Below, piece after piece: positions 1 to 24,000 of a stretch of 64,000 bases of DNA; within the stretch, counting starts at the first letter, position 1; each line of letters begins with the position of its first letter. The notes beneath the pieces were generated by a model. That model saw nothing but the letters and a program-made list of their open reading frames with translations. It ran no database searches and was not told where the DNA came from. A program made the position numbers and the translations under genes. The DNA comes from Hydnum rufescens UP504 (Eukaryota > Basidiomycota > Agaricomycetes > Cantharellales > Hydnaceae). The stretch spans positions 299,841 through 363,840 of the forward strand of contig MU128923.1 in NCBI GenBank assembly GCA_014904985.1, in the 5' to 3' direction.

Positions 1-790
1 GGTTGCACGTATTGGGCTCGTCCGTGTGTTCGTTCGTCGGGTGGTTTTCACAGAGGGAAGAACCTAGAACAACAAAAATAATACATTAGTAAAAAAAAAA
101 AAGAAAACAGATGTGCCAAAAGAGCAGCTTCTGCTGCTCTTTTGGCACTTGTATGTCTCCCAATGGAGAACTACCAAGTATCAGCACACCCGCCACAGCG
201 GTGTGTGGTACTGTATATCAACTGTTGATGTGTTGTGGGTGTTCAGGTCCTGGGTTCTTGGATCGGTGCAGGTGGCTGCGCATGTCCGTTTTTTGTTTGC
301 TGTGTTCTTGTCAGGTGGGGTTTCATGCATCTAGGGGGAGGCCTAGAATAATGAATAGTACATCAGTCCAGAAAAAAAAAAGCAGTGCCCAAGAGCAGCT
401 ATGCTGCTCTTTGGGCACCATTGTACATACTGGGAGAAACTTACCAGTTGTTACCACAATCCGCCTCAGCGGATGTGTGGTCTTATACTTAGTTGGTTGT
501 CGTGCAGGTTCGGGGTGGCTGCACACGGGCCATATTTCACTGGGTCTTGGTCGGTGCATTCGTCAGATTGGGGTTCTACAAAGGGAAAAAACCTAGAATA
601 ATGAGTGATGTCAGTTAAAAAAATTAACAGCAGCAATGCCAAAGAGCAGCTAGTGCTGCTCCTTTGGCATCGCGGTACACACCATAAAGAAAAGAACTCA
701 CCTAATAGTGCCACACACCTGCCTGGCGGGTGTGTGGCACCCTTCTGCTTGCTTCGGGCGCCTCGATGTTGAGTACGATCTGAGCTATTC
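1..790 (-). repeat. Hairpin/intron repeat array I (minus strand)
   Basis: Three units read on the minus strand and the array runs off the left edge. Each unit has an exon-like part ending in palindrome A (core CCACACACCTGC/GCAGGTGTGTGG), then an intron-like part carrying palindrome B (core GCCAAAAGAGCAGC/GCTGCTCTTTTGGC). B hairpins lie at 113-148, 385-418 and 636-670. A hairpins lie at 185-208, 454-480 and 709-740. Intron-like intervals on the minus strand are 174-64, 444-343 and 701-593. They start with GTAGTT, GTAAGT and GTGAGT, and each has a TACTAAT- or ACTGAC-like branch site and ends TTCTAG. The exon parts share a GCAGCCAC motif but have no long open frame. I read this as a tandem, probably noncoding, spliced unit; function is unknown. 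Confidence 0.8.
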
Positions 791-1417
791 AACGCCGGGA
801 CTTTCTGGGCTCGAAAGAACACCCAATTAGGGGCAGTACCAACCCCATATGGATAGATAATAAATACCTAGATCAAAAATAAATAATAAGTAGTAGATAT
901 CTGTCTAAAACAGGTGAAGAAATAAGTGATAGTCTATTGAATTGCACTAAGGCACCATGTGTAAAGAAGAATTGGGGAACTTTCACGCACTATAATTGGC
1001 CCAAATTTCAGTATCTGGGTGGTATGTATATATATATTATGGGTGATGAAACGAATTGGACGATTGTGCCAATTTTCAGTTTCTCGCGCCTTCAATTTCC
1101 TATTCAGGAAATTGAAGGTGTGAGAAACTGAAAATTGGCGCAATCGTCCAATTCATTTCATCACCCATAATATATATATACATACCACCCAGATACTGAA
1201 ATTTGGGCCAATTATAGTGCGTGAAAGTTCCCCAATTCTTCTTTACACATGGTGCCTTAGTGCAATTCAATAGACTATCACTTATTTCTTCACCTGTTTT
1301 AGACAGATATCTACTACTTATTATTTATTTTTGATCTAGGTATTTATTATCTATCCATATGGGGTTGGTACTGCCCCTAATTGGGTGCTCTTTTGAGCCC
1401 AGAAAGTCCCGGCATTG
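790..1417. repeat. 628-bp near-perfect palindrome
   Basis: Two arms of about 312 bp (790-1101 and 1106-1417) are inverted copies with only a few mismatches, separated by the 4-nt loop ATTC at 1102-1105. The arms contain no protein signature. The palindrome sits exactly between array I (leftward) and array II (rightward), so it is the hinge of a head-to-head arrangement. It could be a fold-back element, or the scar of an inverted duplication that created the two arrays. Confidence 0.9.
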
Positions 1418-3060
1418 AGTGGTTTGTTTTGATGCTTACTTAATTCACAATCGTTCGTATATAGGACTCGACCACAGGGACCTGAGGAACTAGAAGAGGA
1501 CCACACCCCCTGCTGCCACGGGTGTGTGGTCATAGGTGAGTACCTCTCCACTATGTACAGCCATGCAAAAAGGGCTGCCAAGGCTGCCCTTTTTGCACAT
1601 CTTTAACACTTTAACTAACATTCAGTAATATTTCCATTCTAGGTATAAGGTTGTGCACCCTGCATACGACGATACAAAACCCACCCACAAATGAATGTGG
1701 GCCAAAATGGGTCCAATACACCGCATACACGCACAGCCCCCAAGGTCATGCGACAACAGATAAAGGACCACACACCCGCTTCAGTGGGTGTGTGGTCCTA
1801 CTAGGTGAGTGTTCAACCAGAAACCTACAGTAGCACCAAAAGAGCAGCACTAGCTGCTCTTTTGGTGCTGCTTCTCTTTGGTTTTTCTAACAGATCGTAT
1901 TATTTGTTATTCTAGGCTTCCCCCCTGCGCGAAAATCCGCCCAGTGAGAACGTGGATGAAGCCTCCCTGTAATACCGATGTATGCAGCCACCAAAGATCC
2001 CCAGGACCCTACGCAACACCCGATTAGGCATGAACACCGGAATGAACGAATGGCAACGTGCACACAAAGCCAGAGTTCAGCACAACCTCATTCTCAACTC
2101 CTTTATCGGAGACACAGACCGAGACCGAGCCTGATACAGATCACCAGAGAATGGCTGGGCAGCAGACGGAACCCAGCCCGCGCCGTCTGCGCCACCGCCA
2201 CCCAGCTACAGATTCAGAAGGTCCAAACTGCTCTGCTGCTGCTCAACAAGGGGTTCGTCCTCCACGTAAAGCATGCTTTGAAGACAGTATATGTAAGGTA
2301 AGTCTTTTTCTTGATTTTTTATTCTCGTGGCACAAAAAGAGCAGCATGAGCTGCTCTTTTTGCGCTACATTAATCTAACTAATTTATTATTTAGTTCTCT
2401 AGATCTTGGACCAGAGCCCCCACAAACAAATACCGATGCAATGCCCCCATAACCCCCCCTTATCAATGCCCGCCTGAACGACGGGTGCCCATACGAACTG
2501 CCGCATGTATGAGGCAGAGTACAGGGCTCCAGTACCCCACACCAGCGCAGCAGGTGTGGGGTGCTACAAGGTAAGTTCTTTTTTATTTTTTATTTCTATT
2601 CTTGTGGTGCAAAAGGAAGCACATGCTGCTCTTTTGCGCTGCATTACTGTTGTACTAACATTTCATTAATTATTTCTCTAGATCCTGAACCAGAACCCAC
2701 ACGAACTGCCAAGTATGAACCCGCGGAACGATAGCCACAAACGAGCCCCCACAAACGAAAACCGACCCCCTCGAGGGAGTGCCCCAATGGAACCGGCCCG
2801 ACCGCACTTGAACCGCGCGAACCCCCGACTACAGACCTGCCGAATGACACCCCGGGAACGAAAACCGGGAACAGAACCATGCACGACCGCACGAATGAAA
2901 ACTGCGAAGGCCCGCATGAACAAAAACTCCCAACGATGCCCCCTTGAGGGATTGCCCAAATGGAACCCAGGCCCTGACTGGGGTGAATTCCAGGTAAGTG
3001 TTTTTTTCTTTAGCTACAATTGTGCAAGAAGAGCAGCCTCTGGCTGCTCTTCTTGGGCAC
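1418..3060 (+). repeat. Hairpin/intron repeat array II (plus strand)
   Basis: Plus-strand array of the same family as array I. A hairpins lie at 1499-1531, 1765-1798 and 2531-2565. B hairpins lie at 1564-1597, 1832-1869, 2330-2365, 2607-2639 (imperfect) and 3022-3060. Intron-like intervals are 1536-1642, 1805-1915, 2298-2402, 2571-2681, and one starting at 2994 without a convincing 3' end. They start GTGAG or GTAAGT, contain a CTAAC-type branch site and end TTCTAG or CTCTAG. The exon-like parts at 1916-2297 and 2682-2993 lack hairpin A and are longer. They keep more CpG than the surrounding DNA. Confidence 0.8.
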
Positions 3061-3159
3061 AGGGTGAGCCCCACTGGGTGAGCCTACAGATGTATATACT
3101 AATATAATACTAATAATAATAATAATAATAAATATATAAATTAATAATGCATAATCTGG
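3061..3159. other. AT-rich end of array II
   Basis: About 60 nt of almost pure A/T, with repeated ATA/AAT triplets at 3,096-3,150, follow the last B hairpin. Arrays III and IV also end in such a tract on their downstream side. The tract could act as a 3'-end or polyadenylation region. No gene is seen here. Confidence 0.45.
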
Positions 3160-3258
3160 CAGGGCCCCTTGATTGTATTGCAGGGGCCCCCAGGGGCCCC
3201 CTGGTAAAAACATCTAGTTAGATATAATAAATGCAAGGCTCATTATATCTAATATGAT
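3160..3258. mobile_element. Hairpin element with GGGGCCCC block, copy 1
   Basis: A GC-rich stretch full of GGGGCCCC is followed by a short inverted repeat that starts ACATCTAGTTAGAT at about 3,209. A matching segment lies inverted at 38,044-38,190, sharing the GGGGCCCC block, the CTAGTTAGA arm and an AAGGCTCAT loop motif. It is best read as a small non-autonomous hairpin (MITE-like) insertion or the tip of a larger element. Confidence 0.5.
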
Positions 3259-4769
3259 GCAGAAAAGTGGCTGACCAGCCTGGACAAGTATCATTGCGGA
3301 AAAGAAGGACAGGCTGTGAAAAGGCAATCCAAAGGCCGGCCTTGTATCAATCCAAAATGAGCAAAGCCAAGACCAAGCAGAAGGTTCACATTCATGTTTG
3401 AGGGACAAAGAGGTTGCAAACAGGAAGTCATCCATATCCAGCAATTGCCACAATACACTGCCCTGCTGCAAATGAATGTCCATGGCCAATCAAATGAAGG
3501 AATAAATATTTTGGGGTTGTGTGAGGGACCATTCTGTAGCTGGGGCCTAATATGTTGGAGGGATAAATCCCCACCACATAGAATTCACATTATCACCCAA
3601 CTACCTCCTCAAATGAATCCAATATATTCAACTCCACCACTTCCATCTCTCATCATTCCTTTTATTATTAAATAGCACAGATTCCCCTCTCTCAAAACCA
3701 TGGCCCACTCACTTCTCCACCTTGCATATGACACATTATTTTTCAACCTCCAGGTCTTCAACAGACCACCTGATTTTGTATTTACCTCAAGTCCAGCCAA
3801 TTGTGGCTTTAACTTGCCCTCTTCATTGATGCTCAATCCAGTGTTCTGTGCCATTGCCTCAAGGGCAATATATGAGTCCCAATTATATAATCAATATTGT
3901 CTAATCCTTTGGATCCAACTTGCAGATTAGTCACATGTCAAATAGGGGCTATTCCAATACTCTCAAGGAGTATTTCACAAATATCTCCCTCATTTTTGAT
4001 TGGATTGACTCTGCAAAATAGCTCCCAGAAAGCTATGATCAATACTTAGCTAACAGTACCACACACACATTTATCAGATGAAAACTGCATCCTCCAGGTT
4101 GATTTTACCTCATGCTCCACACTGTCCTTCAGTATTTTGCAAATATCTCCACCAGTTTTGATCCGATTCATTAGAAACAACCATCCCTGGAAAGATGCTG
4201 AAAATCTGCATCAAATGGTACCAAGGGAAAAACGAGCGGATTAGAACTTGGCTTTCTGTAATTTAGTCTCCCCATGTCTCATTTCACTTTTATCACTTTT
4301 CTGATTACTAAAGGCAATTATGGCTCCAGCACCCTATGTCTGATAGAGGGTACATCTGGGGCGACCAGTTCCACCTTTCCCCAAGGGATTCTGTTCAGTA
4401 GGAGAGGAGGAATACCTTGGTTAAGTCATATTCCCCAATTTTGACTTGTTAATTGAATATCTCCTTCAGTTTTGAAGCTTTTGACTTGATTCCTTTTTCA
4501 TCATTTTTTCCTTAACCCCACCTTTCTTCCGGTTACCATAGCATTTTTTTGATGTATATTAAGTGCAGGAGATGCAAATTTCCATCATCTTTCCCCTCAC
4601 CCCCCATTTTGAAGGCCTAAGAAACTGCCACTGGTCCAAGGGTAAACTCCACAACACAAGCACTGCTTATCACACTTTTGATAGGTTCTCAAGAGGAGGA
4701 CTTAGAGTGTGATCTGATCCCTTCATTCACTGTTTAGATAGTCTCTATCAAAGCAGTACATTTCCCCCA
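3259..4769. other. No gene; decayed dispersed repeats
   Basis: No convincing coding region is visible. Similar segments containing ATCTCC...CAGTTTTGAT recur at about 3,970, 4,140 and 4,445. A related copy lies at 6,945-7,015 and includes the downstream words AAGATG...AATCT and ACCAAG. The sequence is almost free of CpG, as expected of old repeat debris. Confidence 0.5.
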
Positions 4770-4895
4770 TCCAAAGACCACTCCTTTTCAAGGACCTGAA
4801 CACCAGATTGATCCCATGGTCCCCTCTTTTTGTTCTTGATTCCATATCATGGACTGTGGCTGGATTCCTCCCTTTGTTTCCTGCTTACACTGGTC
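4770..4895. repeat. Inverted dispersed repeat, left copy
   Basis: The segment from CCATCCAAAGACC through the AAGGACCTGAACACC and GGACTGTGG motifs reappears in inverted orientation at 7,028-7,155. The two copies differ by scattered substitutions and small indels. Neither codes for a recognisable protein. Confidence 0.65.
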
Positions 4896-5179
4896 CAAGT
4901 GTCTTCTGAGAACTTCAGAGCCTTCAGAGCCTTCAGATACACCCAATCTTCAGAGGAAATGATTTTCCCTGATGTCTTCCAGGTTTTCCTAATGGTTGGC
5001 AGTGAAGGATCTGTCCTGCCTGACCAACAGATTCCCCCCTCTCCAAAATTGTACATATGGAGTTGGAAATGACATGTTCTTCTCCAATGATGAGATTGAT
5101 GAATATGAAAGTGTATCCACTGATGTTGAGCCCTCCCCCAACCTTCCCCCCATATCTGCCTTCTCTCCATGGACCCAAG

Positions 5180-5570
5180 ATGAGCCACAGAAGTCAAGGT
5201 GAAAATCCAATCCCCTCAGATGGGAGCAATTTGTGCCAGAACTGCACTCCTAGACTCCAGAGCAACTGGGATGTTCATGGACCCAACCTTTGCAAAGAGA
5301 ATGGCCTGGATGTACACCCCATCCCTGTCTACAATGTGGATGGAACACTCAATGAGATGGGATCTGTCTGTGAGGAGGTAGAGGTCATCCTCCAGATTCA
5401 TGACCACTCCAAATGAGTAGTGTGCTCTGTGATCAGACTAGGAAAGACTAAGCTGATCATAGGGCACACCTGGCTCCACCATCACAACCCAGAGATTGAT
5501 TGGACAACAAGGGAGATCACTCTGACCCACTGCCCATCTGGCTGCCATGTGGTGATCCAAAAAGTTTGGA
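5180..5570 (+). pseudogene. Ty3/Gypsy retropepsin (protease) relic
   Basis: A retropepsin-like fold is readable across two frames. It begins with A-L-L-D-S-R-A-T-G at about 5,240-5,266, where Gypsy proteases usually have D-S-G-A-T, so the catalytic motif is altered in its glycine. A YNVDGTLNE-like strand follows at about 5,330. The C-terminal half, G-H-T-W-L-H-H-H-N-P-E-I-D-W, lies at about 5,463-5,504, in the style of Gypsy proteases (normally L-G-x-x-W-L). A stop interrupts the frame at 5,414-5,416. No reverse transcriptase follows; an LTR-like block begins about 150 bp downstream, so the rest of pol appears to be deleted. Confidence 0.65.
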
Positions 5571-5724
5571 ATGTGGAATGCCAAAAAGCCAGGAAAGGTG
5601 GGAACAGTGTATGCAATCTGGTAACATTCAAAGCCATTGTCTCACACTATCTAATTGTATTGTTGCATTTCATTCAATCCAGCAAGTATACATGCCAGAA
5701 ACAATATCACTTATGACTGTTGAT

Positions 5725-6600: not shown

Positions 6601-6714
6601 CACAAATTTGCTGAGCTTGTGGAGTAGTTGGAGCATGATGTCACTGGGCTTGTGATGTATTTTGGAGCTCATGGGAAGCAAAATTAAGGGATATCTCCAG
6701 GTTTTGGAGATTAA

Positions 6715-6812: not shown

Positions 6813-7027
6813 CATTGTGGAAGTAAAAACATCCAGTATCAGAAAATGTGAATTTCTATTGATCCCAACCTATGGAACAATCATGTGACCTATCACAAAA
6901 TTAATTATGGCTATGCATGAAAACAGAATTCATTCAATTACTCTGTCAGTTTTGATCAGAAATGCCTGCCAATATAATGCTTGGAAATCTATGATTCACA
7001 TCTTTCAAACAGTACCAAGCACACCAA

Positions 7028-7850: not shown

Positions 7851-7852
7851 AT

Positions 7853-10189: not shown

Positions 10190-10660
10190 GGGGGTCCCAA
10201 GTCAGCATTGGGTCCCAGTTTCCCTCCTAGTGTGTTTTGAAAGTAAAAGTTCTACACAGAAGTAAGAAAAAAGGGGGGGTATTGTTGCCTGGTCATTCCT
10301 TAGCATTTTATGGCTCCTGGAAATTAGGGGAATTTTGCTGGGCATGCGATTCTGATCATTCAAAGTATGTGAAATTCACCAAGTAGGCTATGGCACAGGG
10401 TCCCTGTGGGGGAATTTAGGACCTCCTGCCCCATGGGGTCAAAAACCTGCCCCTGTGACTCATGGGGGTAAAAGCCATGGGATACATGACAGGGTTGAAA
10501 AACCTGAGGGAAACCCATGGGATTCCTGCAGGACAATACCTCAGTACTGTAAGTGTACTGTACAGTACTGTACATGACCCACACAGTACAGAAGATTATT
10601 TAATATTTATTTATTTATTATAATTATATACATTATAACTTGCATCAGATTTCATGCAGG
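10190..10660. other. No gene; AT-rich tract and short palindrome
   Basis: The interval holds a palindromic GTACTGTACAGTACTGTAC at about 10,556-10,574. An AT-rich tract at 10,598-10,640 lies on the downstream (left) side of minus-strand array III, mirroring the AT-rich end of array II. Confidence 0.45.
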
Positions 10661-10664
10661 GGCC

Positions 10665-11850
10665 TTGGCCTCTTTTGGCATCATTGTACACCCCACATTC
10701 AAAAACACAGATCTAATATTGCCACACACCTGCTTCAGCAGGTGTGTGGTGCCATATTTGTTTTGGTGTTGTGGAAAATCAAGGGCTGGGGGGTATGGGC
10801 AGCTCTGTGCTCTTGTGTTTTGCTCTGGAACTGGTCAGTGCATTTTACGGGTCAGATATCATGCAGTGGAGGTCCCTAGAATAATAATCTGTTAGTAAAG
10901 AAAAAAAAATTGAAGGGAATGCCAAAAGAGCAGCTGGTGCTGCTCTTTTGGTGTTGTTGTACACCCCATAATGATAAAAAAACTCAGCTAATATTGCCAC
11001 ACACCTGCCAAAGCAGGTGTGTGGTGCTGTATTTGTTTTGTTGCATATATGTTGCAGATAGCTGAGGGGGGGGGTCTTGGGTGGCTGTGTGTGCTCCATG
11101 TTTTGCCCTGGGCCCCATCTGTTCATTCATCAGGTGGGGTATTGCAGGGTAGAGGTATCTACAATAATAACACATTAGTAAATGAAAAAAGACCTAAGGC
11201 AATGCCAAAAAAGAGCAGCTGGCACTGCTCTTTGGCATTGTTGTGTACTCTGTAATGAAAAAAAAAACTCACTAAGGGTGCCACACACCTGCCAAAGTGG
11301 GTGTGTGTCATATTTGTTTCATTGGCATATATGTTGTGGATAGTCAAGGGGGGGGTCTTGAGTGGCTGTGCATGCTCCCATGTTTCACCCTGGCCCCATC
11401 TGTTCATTTGTCAGGTGGGTATTGTGGGGTGGAGGTATCTACAATAATAACACATTAGTAAATGAAAAAAGACAGAAGGCAACACCAAAAGAGCAGCTGG
11501 CACTGCTCTTTTGGCATTGTCATATACTCTGTAATGAAAAAAAAAACTGACCTAAGAGTGCCACACACCCACCAAAGCAGGTGTGTGGCACCATATTTGT
11601 TTGTTGGCATATATGTGGTGGACAGTTGAGGGTTGGGGTCTTGAGTGGCTGCACATGCTCCCATTTTCGCCTGGGGCCTTGTCTGTGCATTCATTGGGTG
11701 GGGGTTTTGTGCAGGGAGAAAAGATCTAGAATAATGAATCTGTTGTTAAAAAACAACACAAGCAACACCAAAAGAGCAGCTGTTGCTGCTCTTTTGGTGT
11801 CATCATACACCTAATAGTGCCACACACCTGCTGTGCAGGTGTGTGGCACT
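10665..11850 (-). repeat. Hairpin/intron repeat array III (minus strand)
   Basis: Minus-strand array. A hairpins lie at 10,721-10,752, 10,996-11,026, 11,280-11,309, 11,559-11,590 and 11,817-11,849. B hairpins lie at 10,919-10,953, 11,201-11,239, 11,482-11,518 and 11,765-11,800. Intron-like intervals on the minus strand end at 10,876, 11,159, 11,449 and 11,726. Their 5' ends are near 10,988 (GT changed to CT), 11,271 (GTGAGT), 11,551 (GTCAGT) and 11,810 (GTGTAT). ACTAAC/ACTAAT branch sites precede TTCTAG or TTGTAG ends. The units are more alike than in arrays I and II, and have lost most CpG. Gypsy-I is inserted 8 bp beyond the last hairpin. Confidence 0.8.
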
Positions 11851-11852
11851 GT

Positions 11853-11857
11853 ATTGT
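11853..11857. repeat. Left target-site duplication of Gypsy-I (ATTGT)
   Basis: ATTGT directly precedes the 5' LTR and is repeated directly after the 3' LTR at 21,779-21,783. It fits the 5-bp duplication expected of a Gypsy integrase. Confidence 0.85.
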
Positions 11858-12330
11858 TGTTAGTAGCGTGAAATTCTCATGACGGCAGGGCCATCCGTCG
11901 TCATATCTATCATGCCGGTTCTGTACTCTTTCATCATTGAACCCCTCTCTTCCCTTTTCTTTTCTTCTTTTTCCCTTCCACCACCAAAACCGGTGGAAAG
12001 CTTCTCCCACAGGGAGTTTGGTGCTGCCCGGGTTTAGCTAGATTCCTTGCTTACGTAATAGCATAGATTCATTGTACTAGCTTACCTGGCAAGCCCCGAA
12101 AAGATATCTTTTTACTTTCCTGCAACTTGTGCCTTTGCGCGGTGCTGAACAGCACCCTGCGCAACAGGCCAACTTCTTCCATAATGAGACCTACTACGGA
12201 CTCTCTAGAAATACTGCCTAAGGCGAGTACTATGTCCTTATACGTGCTTGCGAGCCCCCAACCAGGACCCAAACCCCCGCCTGGGAGTTCCCTACTGTCA
12301 ACCCTTAATTCAGATACGACCGAATTAACA
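11858..12330 (+). repeat. 5' LTR of Gypsy-I
   Basis: 473-bp LTR starting TGTTAG and ending TTAACA. It matches the 3' LTR (21,305-21,778) with 14 substitutions and three 1-nt indels that I could find; every substitution is a transition at a CpG. The primer-binding site probably starts with TGG at 12,332, just inside the LTR, but I did not match it to a specific tRNA. Confidence 0.92.
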
Positions 12331-12759
12331 CTGGTGGAGTGTGTAAGAACGACTCCTACACAGTCACATTCCGTTACACTGACTGTCTTCCGACATGCCT
12401 ATGGGCCGTCCGAAGATGGTAACCCTAGCCCCCTATCAAATTGGGTGGATACCTCAAGAGGGGTGGACATTCCCCCAAAATTCACGACAACACGAATCGC
12501 CTAGAAGTCTCGGGGTCAGACCACCGTACCTCGAAAAAGTCTTTCGTTGGACCCGAGCCATCCCTGAGCTCCTGTTCGACTGCTTCCAGCCTCACGAGAA
12601 CAGCCTGGAAGCCCGCACGCAAGATTACGTCCTTACGTCTAGACCCCCAAACGACTAACGACCAAAATCTACTTAAGGGATCAAAACGGGTACCCACCTT
12701 CTTCAAGCTGCTGTGCCTATGCCTGCCCCATGCGGTACCCCCAAGAGCCTCGAAGGGGT

Positions 12760-13392
12760 CTGGTAGTACCTGTCTCCTCCTCAACGGAAGGCGTATGACA
12801 GCAAGTCCATGAAGCTGTAGCCAGTTCCGTTAACGTAGATCAAGAGGCTCTACGACGTGCTAGTTTACACTCGTCGGTCGTCAACTCCTTACGACAGGAA
12901 CAAGGGCCCAATGCCTCAGCAGATGTTAGGCTCATTAACAGCTTTTTACATCATTTACTCTACGAACTGGATGTGGAGTCGGAAGGGTTTACGAGTACTA
13001 TCGTACGGATCTCACGCAATGGGCACCCCACGGTATATAAACCCGACGTTGAATTCTGGCTCACGCTACTCCAATGTGGCCAAGTGGTACAGGATGCAGT
13101 CACGGAGATCGCTAGACACTATATCTTACCCATCCAGGACCCATACAAGTTTGACCCTGGAGGGGTACTGGCCATACACATGGAGGCTGGAGTCGCCTCC
13201 GAAGAAAAGGTGACCCAGCTTGCTGTGTTGGCTCTTCGAAGACTACGAACAGGCATAAAGGTAATTGCCCAAATCCAGAGTACCAAAGGGGACGAGTCGG
13301 TCGCCTACATGACCAATTCCAAGGCCCAAGAGATAGCAACTGGGCTAGTAGAAATGACCTCTCGCGCTGCCTCTCCATTGGGGTTTACTTGA
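12760..13392 (+). pseudogene. Gypsy-I gag, N-terminal region
   Basis: In frame 1 the region reads as a continuous structural-protein-like sequence after a TGA near 12,796. It has helical text (Q-E-Q-G-P-N-A-S-A-D-V-R-L-I-N) and a compact fold up to a stop at 13,390. It lies upstream of the capsid-like segment and belongs to the same polyprotein. Serine/threonine-rich sequence from 12,441 to 12,812 in another frame may be its start. The exact initiation codon is unclear. Confidence 0.5.
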
Positions 13393-14300
13393 AAGCCCCG
13401 GAGGGACTCACCTGGCATAATGTGGAGGCCCCGACCCCTAGCACGGTAATAAGCCACGACGGAGGTCCCCCATTATGTTCTCGACTCAAAACCAGATGCC
13501 TGCGGCCATTGGTGGATCCCCTGAGATCCTTTATGTACACCACCCAGTCGATAACCCCAAGGGTCTTTACACAAGGACCCAAATTCTCCAACGACGGTCC
13601 CATGGGACAGCCTCCAGGGGCTGACGTACCGGACCAGATGCCAGGCTGGCAGAACAGGCCCATGCCGCCCGACGGAGAGAACCCCCCTAGGAACCCTCCA
13701 AGTGGAGGTCCCCCTGACGGCAGCGATCCAGGTGATGACAATGGAATCCCTGGGGAAAACCTGTTTAATTGGGGATGGCCTCGTCGAGACCCCCCGTGGG
13801 GATATCCCCATCGTGGCGTGCCAGGCGGCGGAGGTCCTGGGAGAGGACCACCAGACGGAGGATCGTTCCCCCCAGAATCACTGGACTGACTGACGCCCCC
13901 TATGGTTCCAACGCTTACTACGAGCCCAAATTCAAGTTGGAGTTTCGCCCCAGCGACTTGCCAGAATATGATGGGTCTGACAATGCCTTCGTCGCCTGGA
14001 CCGAGGACCTCGACCGATATGCTGCCGGAAGCCAATGGATGCGTGAACAATTGGCCTACGCCGCATCCATGCGATTCACTAAACATGCCGATGTGTGGTG
14101 GCGAAGTTTGCCCAACTCCACAAAGATCCAGGCTAGTCAGAATTGGGACACCCTAAAATTCACTATCCGAACTAGACTACTAGGGAATTGTTGGTACGAT
14201 AAACAGGTCATGATCTATGATGAGATGCGGTTTCATAACCGGGGCCACGAAAGGGAGACCCCGGTGGACTGGTTAACCCGTAAGGTATGGGCCCGATGAG
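13393..14300 (+). pseudogene. Gypsy-I gag, P/G-rich linker and capsid domain
   Basis: A proline/glycine-rich linker (13,590-13,880, many P-P-G and G-G-P) leads by a frame change into a typical retrotransposon gag capsid domain at about 13,890-14,300. Landmarks are F-R-P-S-D-L-P-E-Y-D-G near 13,943, then F-V-A-W and A-D-V-W-W-R, the usual fungal Gypsy capsid pattern. The frame ends at a TGA at 14,297-14,299 that fits a mutated CGA, and coding-like text continues beyond it. Confidence 0.75.
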
Positions 14301-14640
14301 TACTGCATCCCCCTCCCGATGCCAATGATCCTGCCTTCGACTCCCTGGAAGTGGGAACGATCATGGAGCATGCCCGCCTTCCTGGCGGGCCTACATCAAC
14401 GTGGACCTGTGCCACAATACAGACGATTTGTTCACTAGAGTTAAGGATCAGGAGGATGCCCTCCTTGCCCAAGCGGAACTCACAAACACGTCCCGGTCGG
14501 ATGAAATAGCTAACGAAGTACTCCGCCGAGTCCGTGAAGATTTATGAAGAAGCCGATATCGGTCCCCTGCTCTCACTGTTGGCACGAGCTCATCCACACC
14601 CATGTATGCCTACGAACTCAGTGATGTCAAGTCGAAATGA

Positions 14641-14970
14641 AAACCTATCCGACCCTGTCATCATTGTGGCAATGAATGGCATTACGACTACAACTGCGGA
14701 TCATACAAAAAGGACCCCAAAAGAGCTCGGCCAGCAACCAACACCAAACGAGATACCACTTACCATAAGGCTTACTTAGCCATGACCTCCAGATCTGAAG
14801 AAGTCTACCAATCAGCTATGGTGGCAGCTCACGAGGCCCTTAGTAGTGACGAGGAGGGCCAAGAAGCCCCTACTATGTTCGTAGTACCTGAAGAATCCTC
14901 CCTCGATGGGACTGCTTGTTACATTGCATTGGGCACGGGAAGGTCCAAACCCGCTTCCCTGGAGTACTGA
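14641..14970 (+). pseudogene. Gypsy-I nucleocapsid CCHC zinc knuckle
   Basis: Frame 1 holds C-H-H-C-G-N-E-W-H-Y-D-Y-N-C at 14,656-14,697, an exact C-x2-C-x4-H-x4-C knuckle that binds RNA in retroelement gag proteins. It is followed by a basic patch and an acidic linker leading towards the protease. The frame ends at a TGA at 14,968-14,970. Confidence 0.85.
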
Positions 14971-14989
14971 CATCCTGCCTACCATGTTA

Positions 14990-15325
14990 AAGCTTTATGC
15001 GCCTGAGCCCGTAGTAAGAAAACCACCAGGATTAGCTAGCCTGGGCATGGATGCCTTCAAGATCGAGTGCTGGGTGAATGGCCCCCAGGGAACGACCATT
15101 GAAGCAGTTGCTGATTCGGGTGCTGCAGCCACGTTAGTATCGGCACATTGCTTATGGTCTATGGGGGCTGAAGCTCCCACTATCAAGCAAGGTCTGAAAC
15201 TAAGGTTGATACATCTCGCCAGGGAGGCCAAGTGTTTGGGCTACGTGATGATCGATCTGTACTTCCGTAGTCAGTTAGGACTGGTCCTCCTACGCAACGT
15301 AGAAGCCTACGTCATCGAGGGATGA
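14990..15325 (+). pseudogene. Gypsy-I retropepsin (aspartic protease)
   Basis: The catalytic motif A-D-S-G-A-A-A-T is present, with the active aspartate codon at 15,113. A flap-like hydrophobic stretch and the C-terminal strand L-G-L-V-L-L-R-N-V-E-A-Y-V follow. The enzyme would cleave the Gag-Pol polyprotein. A TGA at 15,323-15,325 interrupts the frame. The protease-RT linker continues at 15,402-15,875 and, after another TGA (15,873-15,875), to 16,106. Confidence 0.8.
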
Positions 15326-16099
15326 ACGCTCTGTTACTCATAGGTGAGGATACCCACAGAGCCTGGCAACTACATACTATGAGGCCAGAACATGAGGCCT
15401 ATTGGCGAGTTGGAATAGCGAACACCGAATACCTGCTACCCAAGCAGGTAGCCACTCAGAAAGTTTCACTGTCTCACGAATAACTAAAAGTTCCCTTGGA
15501 AGAACCTCTGACTCTTCCCCTCAATGCAAGACGGGCAAGGGGAAGGTCTACGCCATACAGGATACTTGCATACCGGGAGGATACGTATCCAAAATTCCAA
15601 TATACAGTAATTTTGATCACCGAAACGGAACACGACTCATCGAGAAACATGTCCTCTGGCGAGGACGGGACAGTTTCCTGGCCTCCACCGACTGTTTAGT
15701 CGACACAGCTAACGAAGTGTACCTGTCCATTGCCAACCCTTCGCCCACGCCCAAGTACATACGAAAAGGGGAAGTACTAGGTCTAATGCTTGATCCTGTG
15801 GCCTGCCTGGCCAAGGAAGATAGTCTAACAACCAAAGAGAAGGAGCGATTCTATCGATGGGCTGCGCTGGTATGAGCATTAGTGGAAGGGTCCCTCAACC
15901 AAAAGGACCTAAATCGCCCCAACAATGAAGGAAAAGCAGCCCAGTCAATGGCCCCAACCGAGAGCGAAGAACCCAGCAGTTGGGGTCCCAAGACCACTGA
16001 ATCCAGTAGTTCGGACACGCTCGACTCCAAAGATCTAGAGAAGCTCGTGGACGTGGATCCATCCTTGCCAGCCGAACAAAGAGCCCAGATCTACAAGGT

Positions 16100-17215
16100 A
16101 CTATGAAAAAACGAATTGGCTTTCAGGTTCGATGGACGATTGGGAAAGCACCCTACCAGGGTGCATATAGAACTCGAAGCAGGGACAAAACCTATTTCGG
16201 CAGCGCCGTACATTGCCTCACCTGCCAAACGTGAACTTATCGACAAACAGCTTGACCTATGGTTGAAACAGGGTGTAATTGAACCATCCAACAGCCCTTG
16301 GGGAGCTCCCGTACTTATCATACACAAGAACGGCAAGGATCGACTCTGCGTAGACTGGAGGAAATTAAACGTGCCACCATTAGTGGACCAGTTCCCATTC
16401 CCCGGCAGATGGACATCCTGCAGGCTCTTTCAGGGGCTCAGTACTTGTCCTCCTTTGATGCACTAGCAGGTTTCACCCAGCTAGAATTTGACGAAGTCTC
16501 CCAGCCCTATGCAGGCTATGGAGAATTCACCGGGGCCCTTCCTCAGTTACGTGAGCCCTTTGTGGGCAAATGGCCCACCGTTCTTCCAATTGAGTTTTGC
16601 AAGTTTTGATGCCCCTACTTATGGGGTGTTCACTTAGTCCTCATAGGACGCATCGTAGGTGTCTTCACTCGTTTTGGGAACCACCCTTAAATACACGACG
16701 CTGTGCTGGTGCATCAAAGATCAGGATTTACCTGGCCCTCATAAATGCGCATTGTAGGTATATCTAGGATCGGCTTTAGGACAAAAAGTATCTTGACTAG
16801 GTCTATCCACGATGCTGAAAAGCGTTTACGAGCCGTGGCCCTAGCCCTCCCGCCGAGGACCTGGATGCCCTTCTAGGAATGCAGTGTATTTTCTGAACTA
16901 TCTCGCTTCTTCAGATTTTTTTTTTTTTCCTTTTGCGGCCCTCTATTCGCACTACTCAGGAAAGGGCCTGGTTCGGGCAGAATGAAGAGCCTACAGGGTG
17001 GTGAACTAGCCTATGACCGTCGGGGTACTGGTAAGGCAGGATTACCGTCTGTAACAGATGTTCTGACGTTGCCCTTGCAGGGGCTACGTCCAGCTATTAC
17101 CATACGAGGAACTAGGACGGTACTAAGATACGAGCTGTACAGGGAAGGCCTACCAATGACAAGAGCCTATTTCGACTACAATTATCTTCGAATGCGATGA
17201 CCAATCCCACGAACA
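16100..17215 (+). pseudogene. Gypsy-I reverse transcriptase, frameshifted
   Basis: The N-terminal half is clear. It has L-K-Q-G-V-I-E-P-S-N-S-P-W at about 16,267, the C-V-D-W-R-K-L-N motif near 16,348, then a frame change and L-S-S-F-D-A-L-A-G-F-T-Q-L with its catalytic aspartate near 16,458. Beyond 16,550 the frame shifts repeatedly. Remnants include a P-F-G-L-x-N-G-P-P-like stretch near 16,556 and a thumb-like H-D-A-E-K-R segment near 16,810. I could not find an intact Y-x-D-D, so the enzyme is dead in this copy. Confidence 0.8.
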
Positions 17216-17246
17216 ACGGACTGGGCCCAACTTCAACGTTCTTGTT

Positions 17247-17564
17247 TTGATGGAACAGGTTATTGCATATTGGAGTCGCACATGCAAAGCCGCCGAGATG
17301 CGTTACTCCGCCACCGAACGGGAAGCCCTAGCTGCCAAAGACAGCCTGATCCGGTTCCTACCCTTCATCGAAGGAGAACGTATATTACTAGTAACCGATC
17401 ATGCAGCACTACAATGGGCAAAAACTTACAAGAACGCTAATCGACGCCTTAGCGCGTGGGGGCAGTATTTGCAGCCTTTCCAGGTATGGCGATTGTACAC
17501 CGTCCAGGCTGAGTGCACTCCAATGTGGACCCCCTGTCAAGATTGGAATCAACCCCCGAGGTAG
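17247..17564 (+). pseudogene. Gypsy-I RNase H
   Basis: Reads A-Y-W-S-R-T-C-K-A-A-E, R-Y-S-A-T-E-R-E-A-L-A-A and L-L-V-T-D-H-A-A-L-Q-W, the core of the Ty3/Gypsy RNase H with its catalytic E and D. A frame change near 17,490 leads to S-N-V-D-P-L-S-R-L at about 17,515, the conserved end of the domain. It would degrade RNA in RNA:DNA hybrids during reverse transcription. Confidence 0.85.
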
Positions 17565-18734
17565 TATCCCCCACGGACCAAAATATTCCAGAACTCGTAG
17601 CCAATGAGGATAGTCAAGCCAAAAGCTGGAACTGTTACATGCACTCCCCCAGCCTTGGGAAAGCCGTATTTGTCCAAATGAGAGCCCAGGCAAAGGCCCA
17701 ACCTGGTGCCACAGGACCGACAATCTCTGTCCCAAGTAATGTGGGGGAAGTCATGCAAGAGGATACAGAACCGCAACGCCTTCCAAGAAGAGCACCAGGG
17801 CTAAACCTAGCAGTCTCATTGGAGATTATACGTCAATTTCAGGAAGGTTACAAGCACGATCCTGAGTTTAAGGCTATATGGGCCCGAACAAATCCCACGA
17901 CAGGGGAGGAAAACGTTCCAGATCCGAACATCAAAATCGAGCAATTTCGACGTTTTGCATGAGGACGTAACGGACTGATACTTTTTAAGAATGCCGATAA
18001 TCAGTTCAGACTCTGCGTACCATGGAACAAAACAATTGGACCTGGTCAAAGAGGCACATGACTCCCCCCATGAAGCAGTGCATGGGTGGTGGGGAAAAAC
18101 TCTGGAAGTGCTACGACGAGGTTACTACTGGAAGTCCATGCGAAAGGATGTTATATGGTATTGTGACACCTGCGACGTATGTCAAAAAACCAAACATGAT
18201 AGGTCAGGGTCTAAAGGTTACCTGGCCCCGATCGAAGTCCCCAGCCTGCCATTTGAAGTGATCAGCATGGACTTCGTGACAGGACTACCTGAATCGAAGG
18301 GGCACGACGCTATACTCGTAGTAGTGGACAAACTTACCAAGTATGGAACGTTCATACCAACGACCACATGGGTCACGGCTGACCGAGTAGTGACTTTGCT
18401 ATACCGAGAAGTATACAAACATTTCGGGTTGCCCAAATGGATAGTGAGCGATTGCGACCCTCGGTTCATAAGTAACTTTTGGCGGGCACTGGCCAACTAT
18501 TTTGACACCTGACTGGCTATGTCCACGTTGCACCATCCTCAAACAGATGGCCAGATGGAGGTCATGAACCAACATCTGGAGACCATGATTTGGTGTTATG
18601 TGAGTGCTGATCGTACAGACTGGGTCGACTGGCTAGACGTGTTGGCCTCCACCTACAACCGGGCAGTGCACTCGTCCACCCAAGCCGCCCCCGCAGAACT
18701 ATTATTAGGGTACATTCCCCGGACTCCTCTATGA
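17513..18734 (+). pseudogene. Gypsy-I integrase, zinc-binding and catalytic core
   Basis: The HHCC-like zinc domain (H-D-S-P-H-E-A-V-H ... C-D-T-C-D-V-C) spans about 18,055-18,186. The catalytic triad is intact: D in M-D-F-V-T-G-L-P (about 18,268), D in V-S-D-C-D-P-R-F (about 18,445) and E in Q-T-D-G-Q-M-E-V (about 18,555). TGA stops at 17,960-17,962, 18,510-18,512 and 18,732-18,734 all fit CGA-to-TGA changes. The enzyme would insert the cDNA into the genome. Confidence 0.88.
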
Positions 18735-18942
18735 CTATTACAGGAGGAAGCCGAACCCCTGCAAATGACCAGCCCCCTGGCTGACAGTAGAATAAATGCT
18801 CTCAGAGTACGATGAGATCTAGCCAGAGACGCTATAGTGAGGTCGGCTGATACTCAAGCCTACCAGTATGACAAAAAATGTCAAGCTGTACTATACAAAA
18901 TAGGTGACGAAGTACTAATAAAACCCCCATACCCTAGAACTA

Positions 18943-19330
18943 GTGGATGTTAAGGGTACAGGTCGCAAGTTCATGCAACGTCGCATAGGGCCTTTTGAGA
19001 TCACGGAAGTGGTCAGCCCCACGGCTTACCGGTTAAGGCTGCCTGATTCCATGCCAATGCATAATGTGGTCAATCTAGAGCACCTGACACTGTATAGACG
19101 GTCAGAAGACAAGGACCGCCCCCGACTCACAAACCCACGGGTCGGATTATGGTCTTCAGAAGAGTACAAGGTGGATGAAATTATCGACCATTGACACAAT
19201 AAACAAAAATGTTCGATTGAATACCTAGTCTGTTGGTTAGGCTATGGCCCAGAACATGACTCCTGGCAATCCAGCTGCGACCTAAGAAACGCCCTGGAGG
19301 CCCTACAGGAATACCATAGGAAAAAGGCAC
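18943..19330 (+). pseudogene. Gypsy-I integrase C-terminus and chromodomain
   Basis: After a 1-nt frame change near 18,935 the integrase tail R-R-I-G-P-F-E-I-T-E-V leads to a chromodomain at about 19,160-19,325. It starts Y-K-V-D-E-I-I-D-H and contains Y-L-V-C-W-L-G-Y-G-P-E-H-D-S-W. The aromatic and W residues expected of a chromodomain are present. Chromodomains direct chromovirus integration to marked chromatin. One TGA at 19,192-19,194 interrupts it. Confidence 0.85.
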
Positions 19331-20990
19331 CCCCTATACCTAAGGCCACCACTCCCATCGAGATCTACTTCTCAGGGTTAGCCGAACAGCACACTCCAAA
19401 CACGCGCCAACCATACTGCCATATCATGATCTCCCGTACCAACTTCAACGATCCACAGCCAGCCCGTTATGTGGGTAGCCAACATCACGGCTACACGTTC
19501 TGGGACACGATGGCTGGAGTCTTCATGCCACTGATGCTGCAGCTTACACGAACGGGACACATGGGCATACGCGACTTCCTGGGCCGTAGGCCTTCGTACG
19601 AGCTAATCTCTGTCTCTCCCCCCAGTAGTCTACTTTTGGCCTTTGTCCCCACCTTCCTCCAACCCATATGCGATGTGCAATACGAGAACAAACAGTTCTT
19701 CATATGCAAAGAATGCCTAGACACCCTACGGGCTTCCTGGGAGTACGCTTGGACCCAGGCAGACAAAAACAAGCACGAGTCAAAGTTCCTGATCCCCAGT
19801 CTGGCCAGGGACCTGCATTATCGCATCGACGCACCTAACTGTCCCAGATTCGAAAACTTGTTCAAACCATGGTACTTCAGCGATGCTCTCCATGCCCGAT
19901 ACCTGAAAATCACTCAAATAATCGCGATCCTCTTAGCCTACTCCAACTACACCAAGGCCCACCACCAGTTCGTCAACCCCCACCCTCCCTACGACAAACT
20001 CGAAGACATTCCCCCGGTCTCATGGTACCTAAGTGCTCCAGCAGGATTCATCTGGGACAAACTGACAGACAAAATTAAGGCAACCCTGCTGTGGAAACAA
20101 CTTCACGCCTATCACCTGCATGCCTACGTAGATTCTGCCCATAGCATCGACTCGATACAGGTGGAGCCCGAGGCCAGAACGATGCTGCTATGAGACGGGT
20201 ACTTCGCCACCAACGAGGCTCGCCAAAAAGAACCCCTCCTACTCTGCGACAACTACGAAGGGGAGGTCCCTGCCTTCCCAGGCATTGAGGATCGCGAATC
20301 ATATGCATGGCAGGACACATTCCCAGGCCCCCCGCCCCGCCCCGACAACTTCGATGTACTGGACAATGTAATGAAGTTACTATATTCGGCATGTTACTAC
20401 CGACCGGATGGCACGTTCATGACCGCTGCAGAACGAAAAGCAACTACGACTACTCCTCAGGGTACAGAAGACACCAACGTCCCAGCCCAAAGTACATCCG
20501 GCCCTACAGAAAATACTACAGGCTCTGCCAGTTCCCCATTCGACGTGGATATGGACTCGCCGACCTGGGAAGATGCTCCCCAAGGAGCAAACACGCCGTC
20601 CACATCACAAGAAAGTCAGCCAGATGCTGGCATTTGGTGGGAAGGATTGCCCAATCCGGCGACCCAAGCTACCGTCACCTACGGAGCAGAACCCAGACTG
20701 CGACCTGGCCAGGGTTTCAGACCTGCCCCCCGAGGACGGTCCCACGACCCACGCTCAGGCCCCAACCGTATTCCCGGACCCCTAGAAGAGGATAGACACT
20801 GGAGGCCACAGAATGACCGGTCTTCCCACTCCAGGCCACCACGATGACCCTTGCCAGACCCTCGAGCGCACTCCAGAGACTTAGCGCCTGACAACACCGG
20901 CGAAAGAAGACGCTCCCCTCCCGGACCCTTGAGCGCTACCACCCCCCGGCCCCTAGGGAACTTCCTGATACGTATGCTCCAAACCAGTCC
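19331..20990 (+). pseudogene. Gypsy-I C-terminal extension of unknown function
   Basis: The frame of the chromodomain continues for about 550 codons with only TGA interruptions (20,191-20,193 and 20,845-20,847). The first about 330 residues look globular, with many conserved-type aromatics and the motif F-I-C-K-E-C-L-D-T-L-R-A-S-W near 19,698. The rest is disordered, acidic and then R/P/S-rich. I see no signal peptide or membrane helix, so it is not a typical envelope protein. It is not a standard Pol domain I can name. It may be a captured or element-specific accessory domain made as part of the Pol polyprotein. Confidence 0.65.
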
Positions 20991-21304
20991 TTAGCTTCAG
21001 CGCGACCTCAAATAGTGGGCCAAGTGCCGTACATCAACGCTGCCGATGGGACATGGCTCGAAGCTCCCATCATCCACCTGGCACCAACTCATCCGGGGCC
21101 GGATCGACTCGATCAATGCTTGTGCATGGAACTAGAGCTAGCCCATGCAGGGTCCAGTGGGTCGCAACGCCAAACCATACACTCTGAAACCCGATGCGAT
21201 CAATACTACAGAACCGATGATAGCGACGAGGATCCCGACCCACGACGCCACAGAGGGTATTCCTCACAACGCTAGATACTCATGCCTGTAGGAATGGGGG
21301 GCAT
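20991..21304 (+). other. Gypsy-I 3' internal region and polypurine tract
   Basis: Coding-like text peters out here, with no clear domain. The purine tract AGGAATGGGGGG at 21,290-21,302 directly before the LTR fits a polypurine primer for plus-strand DNA synthesis. Confidence 0.65.
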
Positions 21305-21778
21305 TGTTAGTAGTGTGAAATTCTCATGATGGCAGGGCCGTCCGTCGTCATATCTATCATGCCGGTTCTGTACTCTTTCATCATTGAACCCTCTCTTCCC
21401 TTTTCTTTTCTTCTTTTTCCCTTCCGCCACCAAAACCGGTGGAAAGCTTCTCCCACAGGGAGTTTGGTGCTGCCCCGGGTTTAGCTAGATTCCTTGCTTA
21501 CGTAATAGCATAGATTCATTGTACTAGCTTACCCGGCAAGCCCTGAAAAGATATCTTTTTACTTTCCTGCAACTTGTGCCTTTGCGCGGTGCTGGAACAG
21601 CACCCTGCGCAACAGGCCAACTTCTTCCGTAATGAGACCTACTACGGACTCTCTAGAAATACCGCCTAAGGCAAGTACTACGTCCTTATACGTGCTTGCG
21701 AGCCCCCAACCAGGACCCGAACCCCCACCTGGGAGTTCCCTACTGTCAACCCTTAATTCGGATACAACCGAATTAACA
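21305..21778 (+). repeat. 3' LTR of Gypsy-I
   Basis: 474-bp partner of the 5' LTR, starting TGTTAG and ending TTAACA, followed by the target duplication ATTGT. Neither LTR is the consistently decayed one: at the CpG differences either copy may keep the CpG. Both have therefore mutated independently since insertion. Confidence 0.92.
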
Positions 21779-21783
21779 ATTGT

Positions 21784-24000
21784 GCTTGCTAGGCACCTTT
21801 TGGATTCCAGCAATTGCCAACATTGACTTTGCAGGCTCATCAGACTCTACTGCAACAAGAACACAACCCCAAATGAAGAAAGAAATAGGACCACACACCC
21901 ACCACTGTGGGTGTGTGGTCATATAAGGTAAGTATTTCTTTTATCCATAGCAACAAATGGGCAGAAAGAGCAGCTTGCTGCTCTTTTTGCCCAGGATTTA
22001 AAAACTCAACTAATGCTTTATTTACTGGGCTAGGCCAGATCTCCCACCCACCAACAACACCCCTGCACAGCCACATGAATGGGAATGTGTGAACAAATGA
22101 CAATGCATACAGGAAGCCACAGAGAAGACAGAGCCACACACCTGCCATGGTGGGTGTGTGGCTATATAAGGTATGGATCTTTTTAATAGCTATGAACATG
22201 CAAAGAGAGCAGCAGTTGCTGCTCTCTTTGCATGAGTTTGATCTTAACTATCCAATTATTTTCATTCTAGATCAGGGGGTCCAACCGTAATGTGCAAACA
22301 CCCATGCAGCTGTGAGTCCACACCAACCCACAGACCCACCTGGACCCCTATGACCTCACATGAACTATGGGCACATGCACAGCCATCCAAAACCCCAACA
22401 CTCAACTACCCACAACCCATATGACAGCAAAACAAGTATGGCACCACACACCCACTTCAGTGGGTGTGTGGCAATATTAGGTGTGTTTATTTATTACAAG
22501 GTGTATTACAATGCCAAAAGAGCTGCTCTGGCTGCTCTTTTGGCAATGCTTTTGTTATTTTTTTGGACTAACATATGCCCTATTCTAGCTCCACTTCTTC
22601 CATGAAACCCCCATCTAAAGAACATACCAACAAGGCCTGGGTGAAATACAGGCATGTGTGCAGCCACACAAGACCCCAACACTCAACTACCTGTAACCCA
22701 TATGAGAGCAAAATGAGTACAGTGCCACACACCTGCTTTGGCAGGTGTGTGGCAATATTAGGTGTGTTTGTCCATTGTGGGGTGTACCACAATGCCAAAA
22801 GAGCAGCCCTGGCTGCTCTTTTGGCATTGCTTTTGTTATTTTTTTAAACTGACATACTTCCTATTCTAGCTCCTCTCCCTCCATGACACCCCCATCCAAA
22901 GAACATACTGACAAGGCCCAGGCAAAACACAGGCATGCATGCAGCCACCCAAGACCCCAACCCTGAGTATTAACAATGAAATAGATATGGTGCCACACCC
23001 ACCAAAGTGGGTGTGGCAATATTCAGTTAGTTTCTATATTACTGGGTGTATGACAATGCCAAAAGAGCAGCACCACCTGCTCTTTTGGCATTGTCTTTGA
23101 TTTTTTTTTCCCTCTTATGCACTGTACCAATGTGTATATATAATAATTAATAAATAAACAATAAATGATTGGTTATCAATGGACAGGAGATATGAATTTT
23201 GATGGGAGGCATCCACCTTACAGCCTCTTGTGGTTTAGGCCTGGGGGATATTCAAACCTGCCTGCATATTCCTGGGGATTGGGGGTTCTTCATGGGTTTT
23301 AGGGCTACCCACAATGGTACCTGTGGGCCCAGCCCCCAAACACTCAGGGTAAAGTGAAGTACCACACACACACCTGCTGTGGCAGGTGTGTGGTACTACA
23401 GTGTAAGTTTTATTTTATTTTATCTCATGGCACAAGAGGAGCAGCACAAGCTGTTCTTGTGCTGCTTTAATGTTTAACTAGTATATCCTTTCTCTTTCTA
23501 GGCCTTCAACTCAAACCCCTGTGAACCCCAACCCAAAACCCACCAAGTGAAACCCCACAAATGAAACCCCAAGAACAAAACCCTGAGAACAAAGCCCTGA
23601 AAATGAAGCCCCACAAATGAAGCCCCATGACCATACCCCCACAAATGAAACCCCATGAAAGAAACCCCATGAACAAAACCCTGTGAACAAAACCCCATGA
23701 ACAAAACCCCATGAACAAACCCCATGAACAAAACCCTGTGAACAAAACCCCACAAACAAAACCCCATGAACAAAACCCTGTAAACAAAACCCCCTGAACA
23801 AAATCTACAAACCAAACCCATGAACAACACCCCCCTCAAGCAACAACCCACAACCACTCACTTTGGTGGGTGTGTGGTGATCTTTAAGCTAAGTATTCAT
23901 GTCCAAGTACAGTTGTGTGAAAGGAGCAGCATGTGCTGCTCCTTTTGTGGGGCTTTTCTTTTCTTCTTTCCTTACTAACATATTTATTATTTAGGTTTTC
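21784..24000 (+). repeat. Hairpin/intron repeat array IV (plus strand)
   Basis: Plus-strand array starting just right of Gypsy-I. A hairpins lie at 21,889-21,920, 22,132-22,163, 22,443-22,471, 22,723-22,754, 22,991-23,018, 23,359-23,396 and 23,848-23,878 (imperfect). B hairpins lie at 21,959-21,992, 22,197-22,234, 22,511-22,545, 22,791-22,829, 23,053-23,093, 23,429-23,463 and 23,916-23,950. Intron-like intervals are 21,928-22,033, 22,171-22,270, 22,481-22,588, 22,762-22,869 and 23,403-23,501. One more ends at 23,994 with its 5' GT lost. Exon-like parts share GCAGCCAC(C/A)CAAGACCCCAAC-type sequence. AT-rich tracts follow at 23,130-23,165 and 24,210-24,320. Confidence 0.82.
23510..23845. repeat. 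14-15 bp minisatellite inside array IV
   Basis: About 24 tandem copies of a unit like ACAAAACCCCATGA fill the exon-like part between two array IV introns. All three minus-strand frames are open through it because the unit lacks stops on that strand. This is a composition effect and not evidence of a gene. Confidence 0.8.

Follow-up and report, generated by a model that had tools for sequence, protein, structure and literature searches.

Foldback-type elements, e.g. Tm1 of the Mutator/Foldback family in nematodes, are made up of long inverted arms built of repeats around a centre. Introners and introner-like elements, known from e.g. Micromonas and Dothideomycetes fungi, are many similar spliceosomal introns spread by copying, and the fungal ones sit in unrelated genes (PMC4457414). 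For the Kyakuja-Dileera-Zisupton (KDZ) transposons, target-site duplications of 7 bp in Kyakuja and of 8 bp in Zisupton and a Dileera family are described, and those Kyakuja families that carry a TET/JBP gene are reported to have termini of the CA..TG type and duplications of 7 bp, and to lack terminal inverted repeats (PMC12730594). In the 64,000-nucleotide stretch of the Hydnum rufescens UP504 genome analyzed here (contig MU128923.1, positions 299,841 to 363,840; hereafter the window), four arrays of hairpin-paired intron units form two divergent pairs, namely arrays 1 and 2 (element 1) and arrays 3 and 4 (element 2). With a probability that we put at slightly below one half (about 0.48), and judging from sequence analysis, each array pair would be a non-autonomous KDZ-type DNA transposon, the body of which consists of two divergent intron-rich noncoding units. 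Five observations made on the sequence speak for this, i.e. the divergent architecture, the dispersal in the genome, termini common to an end beside a KDZ open reading frame (ORF), the ordered splice signals, and rates of change that are unequal between lineages and even in a recent pair of copies.

The units were scored with a covariance model, R1, trained on 32 units (three of them from the window) and holding 29 pairs, with matches taken at E-values up to 0.01. In the window this gave 52 matches, every one of which overlapped the four arrays, with zero elsewhere. Twenty were sense-strand units distributed over all four arrays, scoring 44.8 to 104.4 bits, while the remaining 32 were antisense or single-hairpin matches over the same arrays. 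Since the antisense matches reach 49.3 bits, the maximum among these 32, the weakest sense unit (2964-3059, 44.8 bits) is not separable by strand. A preliminary description of the window had named the four arrays, their strands and the order of parts in each unit, and all of these were confirmed, the order in a full unit being hairpin A (~13 bp), a GTRAGT-type donor, hairpin B (~16 bp), a CTAAC-type branch site and a TTCTAG acceptor. Its estimate of about 18 A and 19 B hairpins was likewise reproduced, with 18 A and 17 B hairpins found by motif within the arrays and two further B hairpins by eye (about 1566-1593 and 2604-2636), although hairpin A was absent by motif from the units at 2273-2366 and 2964-3059. 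The two introns listed in Table 1, both of which it had cited, begin with GT and end with AG.

Beyond the window, structure was read from sampled stretches amounting to ~0.27 Mb (274 kb, 18 kb of them N) of an assembly of 63.19 Mb in 539 contigs, and genome-wide figures are exact-pattern counts over related copies. In the sampled sequence, donor, branch site and acceptor occurred in order in 80 of 124 paired units, as compared to 4.3 +/- 2.1 over 200 shuffled versions (at most 10), and in only two units on the reverse complement. For B hairpins flanked by A hairpins on both sides, the donor decided the strand, which slightly biases the number of donors. Among 83 donor-bearing units, 73 had the donor 3-10 nt past hairpin A. 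Genome-wide, the strict A-donor-B pattern gave 1,433 matches (overlapping ones counted separately) and the exact B hairpin 3,688, with 0 for the reversed pattern in both cases. The linkage between hairpins and splice signals that had been proposed is consequently seen beyond chance. The predicted introns have a median length of 106.5 nt, or 67.5 nt when hairpin B is subtracted (n=70), and the common donors and branch sites are close to consensus rather than weak. Base composition follows the same partition, with T-poor exons (14% T) and T-rich introns (38-43% T). Tandem periods of 280 bp and 281 bp were found in arrays 3 and 4, respectively, and the units owe part of their multiplication to tandem duplication.

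The two arrays of a pair are arranged around a palindrome, which is intact in element 1 (Table 1), where its arms differ at 1 of 218 non-CpG sites. The core of this ~640-bp palindrome has about 347 copies genome-wide at up to two mismatches, with a reversed control of 0, and nine of the ten palindromes in the sampled sequence have minus-strand units to the left and plus-strand units to the right. Arm-to-arm differences at non-CpG sites amount to 0-1 of 203-218 sites in six of the ten palindromes and to 4-11 of 181-208 sites in the remaining four. Different palindromes, in comparison, are only ~70% similar to each other (median of 45 pairs). As the arms are near-identical within one palindrome and yet the palindromes differ to this extent, the two arms must be homogenized. 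One copy (L043/L044, contig 2, 642-645 kb) is palindromic at 93% over 3.1 kb, i.e. nearly the whole sampled piece with its arrays included, so that inverted duplication can take in entire arms. In element 2, a long terminal repeat (LTR) retrotransposon that is foreign to the element separates arrays 3 and 4, and is flanked by a 5-bp duplication, ATTGT, read from the sequence at 11853-11857 and 21779-21783.

The ends of the elements take the form CAGGCTGG..CCAGCCTG. Ends reading CAGGCTGGTCAG or close to it were found at eleven places, ten of them at most 1 kb and one 1.9 kb away from a B hairpin, and many arms in the sampled sequence have no recognizable end. The end region of element 1 recurs at L006, L007, L009 and on contig 3 at 608-614 kb (255-279 columns), and partly at L016. 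The connection to KDZ comes from another locus, L019, where a CAGGCTGGTCAG-like terminus stands 311 bp from a KDZ-transposase ORF (PF18758, E 1.4e-45), and where the end breaks a repeated stretch that also occurs on the contig of the window. Sixteen ends were compared with this L019 end and scored against shuffles. A second end type, characterized by a GGTACC hairpin and adjoining arrays at six places, has 57-70 of 71-90 bases in common with it. Among the ten remaining ends, eight scored at or below their own shuffles. Two positions in the window, 38028 and 61509, carry KDZ-like termini with no adjoining array; only the latter resembles the KDZ end beyond the terminus (score 43, shuffles 27). 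KDZ domains are common in this genome, with 154 matches from the 150 scored out of 584 candidates. In ten frames of array copies (from L007, L017 and the window), Pfam gave no match and hence no KDZ transposase, and the element is therefore at most non-autonomous.

These ten frames also bear on the noncoding nature that had been attributed to the units, which held up. The predicted spliced arms of L007, the one copy so analyzed, have longest frames of 148 and 128 amino acids (139 and 133 on average in shuffles), and of the 13 exon indels that separate L007 from L009, 10 are a single base long. On these grounds, i.e. one copy with no frame beyond shuffles, the 1-nt indels and ten frames with no Pfam domain, a protein-coding multi-exon gene was rejected. 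A known RNA family was rejected as well, since Rfam had 0 matches in the window at gathering score and no tRNA was found there.

Rates of change were compared at two distances. In the recent pair L007/L009, non-CpG sites evolve alike at ~1% in exons (9/834), introns (5/559), splice signals (1/90) and the palindrome (6/420), and hairpin B shows 0/174. Exon divergence in this pair is 11% overall and ~1% off CpG-type sites, with transitions making up 148 of the 176 other exon differences; as the differences are mostly CpG-type transitions, they are a sign of methylation-linked decay. Six distant copies were then set against L007 and pooled, again at non-CpG sites. Exons differed at 216/1065 sites (20.3%), the intron remainder at 114/886 (12.9%) and the palindrome at 283/2083 (13.6%), as compared to 7/128 (5.5%) for splice signals, 12/297 (4.0%) for hairpin B and 9/107 (8.4%) for hairpin A. 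Splice signals and hairpins thus change more slowly than exons, by a factor of 2-5, and than the intron remainder, by a factor of 1.5-3, in agreement with the earlier account of tandem multi-intron units with one exonic and one intronic hairpin, of which the other parts diverge faster. These rates derive from unfiltered homologues with L007, in which the motifs had themselves been located by pattern, as the one common reference, and with gapped positions and CG, TG and CA sites dropped. They were relied on in preference to a separate figure for hairpin conservation, which is partly circular since the units were found by hairpin motif. That rates are even once a copy has inserted, yet unequal when lineages are compared, suggests a role for hairpins and splice signals in those copies that spread further.

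The loops of the hairpins are of a kind familiar from RNA, GNRA and UNCG being classes of stable RNA tetraloops, although B loops (GC-GAAA-GC) are stable as DNA too. Among donor-linked hairpins genome-wide, GNRA occurs in 498 of 1,640 B loops and its mirror image in 28, while UNCG occurs in 218 of 1,154 A loops and its mirror image in 55. Stem changes that affect both sides and keep Watson-Crick pairing numbered 91 for hairpin A, vs. 27.6 in shuffles (107 rows), and 141 for hairpin B, vs. 44.2 (99 rows). The rows counted, out of 124 units, were those with a 4-nt loop and at least four of the six innermost pairs intact, a choice that leans towards paired cells. Included are changes from A-T to C-G, which no G.U step can bridge; at CpG positions, some of the changes counted reflect double decay. 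Given the unequal lineage rates and the strand-specific tetraloops, the hairpin structures seem to be selected for propagation, probably acting as RNA.

A number of observations weigh against a KDZ-type transposon with RNA-level function. At the ends, the window's own right end equals the KDZ end in the last 13 bases only (score 26, shuffle maximum 24), and five array ends, the window's included, match it over only 11-13 terminal bases with about null scores. The element in the window has the first end type, whose tie to KDZ consequently consists only of these 11-13 terminal bases and of its same place beside the same arrays. The KDZ element at L019 was itself seen at one end only. A target-site duplication was not found at 20 ends, where no candidate flank adjoined a recognizable terminus, and the sampled sequence contained no element with both ends and clean flanks. 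As to architecture, the tenth palindrome (C2:158534) is flanked by minus-strand units on both sides. Rates give exceptions too, as hairpin A differs at 5/83 sites in the recent pair, and splice signals changed nearly as fast as exons (5/28 vs. 54/251) in one of the six distant pairs. The skew of the A loops is weaker when one CpG decay is allowed (47 vs. 25 for the mirror image, among 100 listed), and the loop and compensation counts are not independent because the copies are related. On the transcript strand of resident stems, G.U is in no excess over A.C (113 vs. 111), which is no sign of RNA constraint; this equality fits neutral resident copies and lends no support to constraint after insertion. 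Finally, perfect stems can also come from template switching of DNA, conversion or quasi-palindrome correction, as the palindrome arms suggest.

This last point leads to the possibility that everything takes place at the level of DNA, with hairpins and palindrome serving as transposase binding sites or cruciforms and with intron-like signals that are incidental or a by-product of transcription. All of the element is palindromic, from the ~640-bp core to the 3.1 kb of arrays in one copy, its stems lack G.U bias, its core arms are homogenized, and six ends are DNA-transposon-like. We nevertheless consider it rather unlikely, as hairpin B is followed by branch site and acceptor, in this order, in the majority of the 124 units and seldom so on the opposite strand, the pooled rates place splice signals with the slowest-changing sites, loops are strand-specific, and exons and introns differ in T content as given above. 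A functionless satellite carried by KDZ-type transposons, persisting through recent amplification only, would fit the recent pair, which evolves evenly at most non-CpG sites, as well as the 280-bp tandem duplications. The 2-5 times faster exons in the six pooled pairs and the oriented tetraloops speak against it, and a pure satellite, which we regard as quite improbable, is not favored because of the palindrome, the ends and the unequal rates.

Another alternative is prompted by transposons of the basidiomycete yeast Cryptococcus that are targeted by RNA interference (RNAi). The arrays could be silencing loci or decoys, at which spliceosomes would stall on introns flanked by hairpins and so supply RNAi, with the arrays either enlisted by the host against the element or serving the element as a means to divert the machinery. 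According to work on Cryptococcus, spliceosomes stalled on transposon transcripts recruit RNAi (PMC6232588). In the Hydnum arrays, hairpins adjoin donors and sit in introns, and the copies show CpG-type decay as in methylated repeats. The common donors and branch sites, being near consensus and not weak, speak against such a role, which we consider unlikely. The remaining candidate, mobile introns of the introner-like type multiplied in tandem, was the kinship suggested by the preliminary description. The thousands of similar introns with structured interiors agree with it. However, the repeated unit takes in an exon and hairpin A, its copies make up the divergent arms to either side of a palindrome, no long frame occurs in the spliced arms of the tested copy, and we think this origin highly improbable. 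Nothing was found that supports kinship with introners, host genes not having been searched. The tandem noncoding intron-hairpin units of the preliminary description are thus supported, and the larger mobile element with its palindromic core and KDZ-type ends had gone unseen.

Compared to the described systems, the non-autonomous KDZ-type element proposed here shares with the KDZ transposons one end type, at 57-70 of 71-90 bases next to a KDZ ORF, but differs in the lack of a Pfam domain in ten frames and in a body of noncoding intron units; as stated above, its 20 ends gave no target-site duplication. With Kyakuja it has CA..TG termini in common, whereas the described Kyakuja families lack the inverted termini seen here, so that the present elements fall outside Kyakuja as described there (PMC12730594). 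The introner-like elements resemble it in their many similar spliceosomal introns; the difference lies in exon-plus-intron units placed in tandem inside an apparently noncoding element. Units of the sampled loci are mostly found in arrays around palindromes. Long inverted arms built of repeats around a centre are common to Foldback-type elements, but the present arms bear oriented splice signals and tetraloop hairpins, and a palindrome lies at the centre. The Cryptococcus transposons also have intron-bearing RNA that is read by the spliceosome, but hairpin-paired intron arrays are not described in the available portion of that report (PMC6232588). A search of the literature on fungal repeats, introners and KDZ elements gave no transposon of hairpin-paired intron units among the matches listed, which is weak evidence of novelty as most subscription journals are outside its coverage. 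The B-hairpin pattern itself occurs outside this genome, both in IMG/VR (five stretches) and in prokaryote genomes (at least 119), and these stretches were taken for putative intrinsic terminators; R1 scored at most 36.1 bits on 15 of these loci (five viral and ten prokaryote), as compared to up to 104.4 bits in the window.

Table 1. Coordinates of the array elements and of the retrotransposon in the window.
Feature	Position	Strand	Details
Array 1 (left arm, element 1)	112..739	-	3 units: 112-210, 384-482, 635-739; R1 67.7, 70.4, 85.8 bits
Central palindrome, element 1	789..1418	.	Arms 789-1101 and 1106-1418, 98% complementary (repeat search)
Array 2 (right arm, element 1)	1499..3059	+	5 units: 1499-1599, 1766-1869, 2273-2366, 2533-2640, 2964-3059; R1, in unit order, 61.3, 99.6, 51.8, 59.3, 44.8 bits
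Predicted intron GTGAGT...TCTAG enclosing hairpin B	1536..1642	+	Read from sequence
Predicted intron GTGAGT...TTCTAG enclosing hairpin B	1805..1915	+	Read from sequence
Outer end, element 1	3060..3283	+	AT-rich stretch, subterminal hairpin, terminus CTGACCAGCCTGG (3271-3283)
Array 3 (left arm, element 2)	10653..11848	-	5 units; R1 49.9-90.5 bits
Array 3 units	10653-10751, 10918-11026, 11201-11310, 11481-11590, 11764-11848	-	R1
LTR retrotransposon between arrays 3 and 4, foreign to element 2	11858..21778	.	LTR repeats 9446-9448 bp apart, LTRs ~0.47 kb
Remnant of the palindrome's outer end, GGATTCCAGCAATTGCCAACATTGACT, element 2	21792..21828	+	Short match to L006 palindrome end, 35 columns, 86%
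Array 4 (right arm, element 2)	21889..23951	+	7 units; R1 51.7-104.4 bits
Array 4 units	21889-21993, 22132-22234, 22442-22547, 22723-22828, 22991-23092, 23363-23463, 23846-23951	+	R1

Array 1 is truncated at the left window edge by an assembly gap (a run of N). A stretch to the left of this gap (L001:4373-10000), namely L001:2802-3860, is 97% like window positions 1-1051, possibly one locus assembled twice. Near the 3' end of the LTR retrotransposon, an ORF at 19195-20190 matches a chromodomain (PF00385) at 24.9 bits, just under the cut-off of 25.1. Positions 24500-26300 hold what we take, by eye from its motifs, to be a degraded gypsy-like reverse transcriptase with in-frame TGA stops. Tandem repeats are found at 41532-42547 (21-bp period) and 56105-56620 (21/42-bp), with the word ACCTGCTA in common in opposite orientation, and the former lies mostly inside a 380-codon open frame with no Pfam match.

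How the proposed KDZ-type element could work may be outlined from its layout, which would run from a terminus CAGGCTGGTCAG with a subterminal hairpin through a minus-strand array, the ~640-bp palindrome and a plus-strand array to an inverted terminus. The palindrome would presumably be a symmetric promoter firing both ways, and each arm is predicted to give a noncoding RNA from which the intron of every unit is removed. Hairpin B, with its GNRA loop, would fold out the middle of the intron, giving an intron of ~107 nt the donor-branch spacing of one of ~67 nt; because the introns are ~67 nt when B is left out, it may bring the branch site effectively closer to the donor. Hairpin A, with its UNCG loop, would cap the exon just ahead of the donor, and the T-poor exons (14% T) could be weakly structured linkers between A hairpins. 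The DNA would be moved by a KDZ transposase supplied in trans. The conserved role might then be clean splicing and stability of the element's own RNA, which would keep copies transcriptionally open or unsilenced until transposition, and the gain from good splicing would, at a guess, be escape from silencing of the kind known in Cryptococcus, which recognizes poorly processed transcripts of transposons. Carried further, this becomes a selfish DNA element acting through two divergent, fully spliced RNAs, with UNCG hairpins at regular spacing in the mature RNA and lariats with GNRA hairpins released, which in cis or in trans would evade silencing or recruit the KDZ transposase; in this full form the proposal is doubtful.

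If true, it would amount to a transposon that carries an intron-and-hairpin RNA machine as its sole cargo. A transposon with no protein of its own would then be under selection for splicing and for the folding of its RNA, which is visible since resident copies drift and transmitted lineages do not. It would also be a testable case of a DNA transposon using the spliceosome, and of intron arrays helping or hindering RNA-based silencing in basidiomycetes. As a warning, a repeat that looks introner-like may be an internal component of some larger mobile element.

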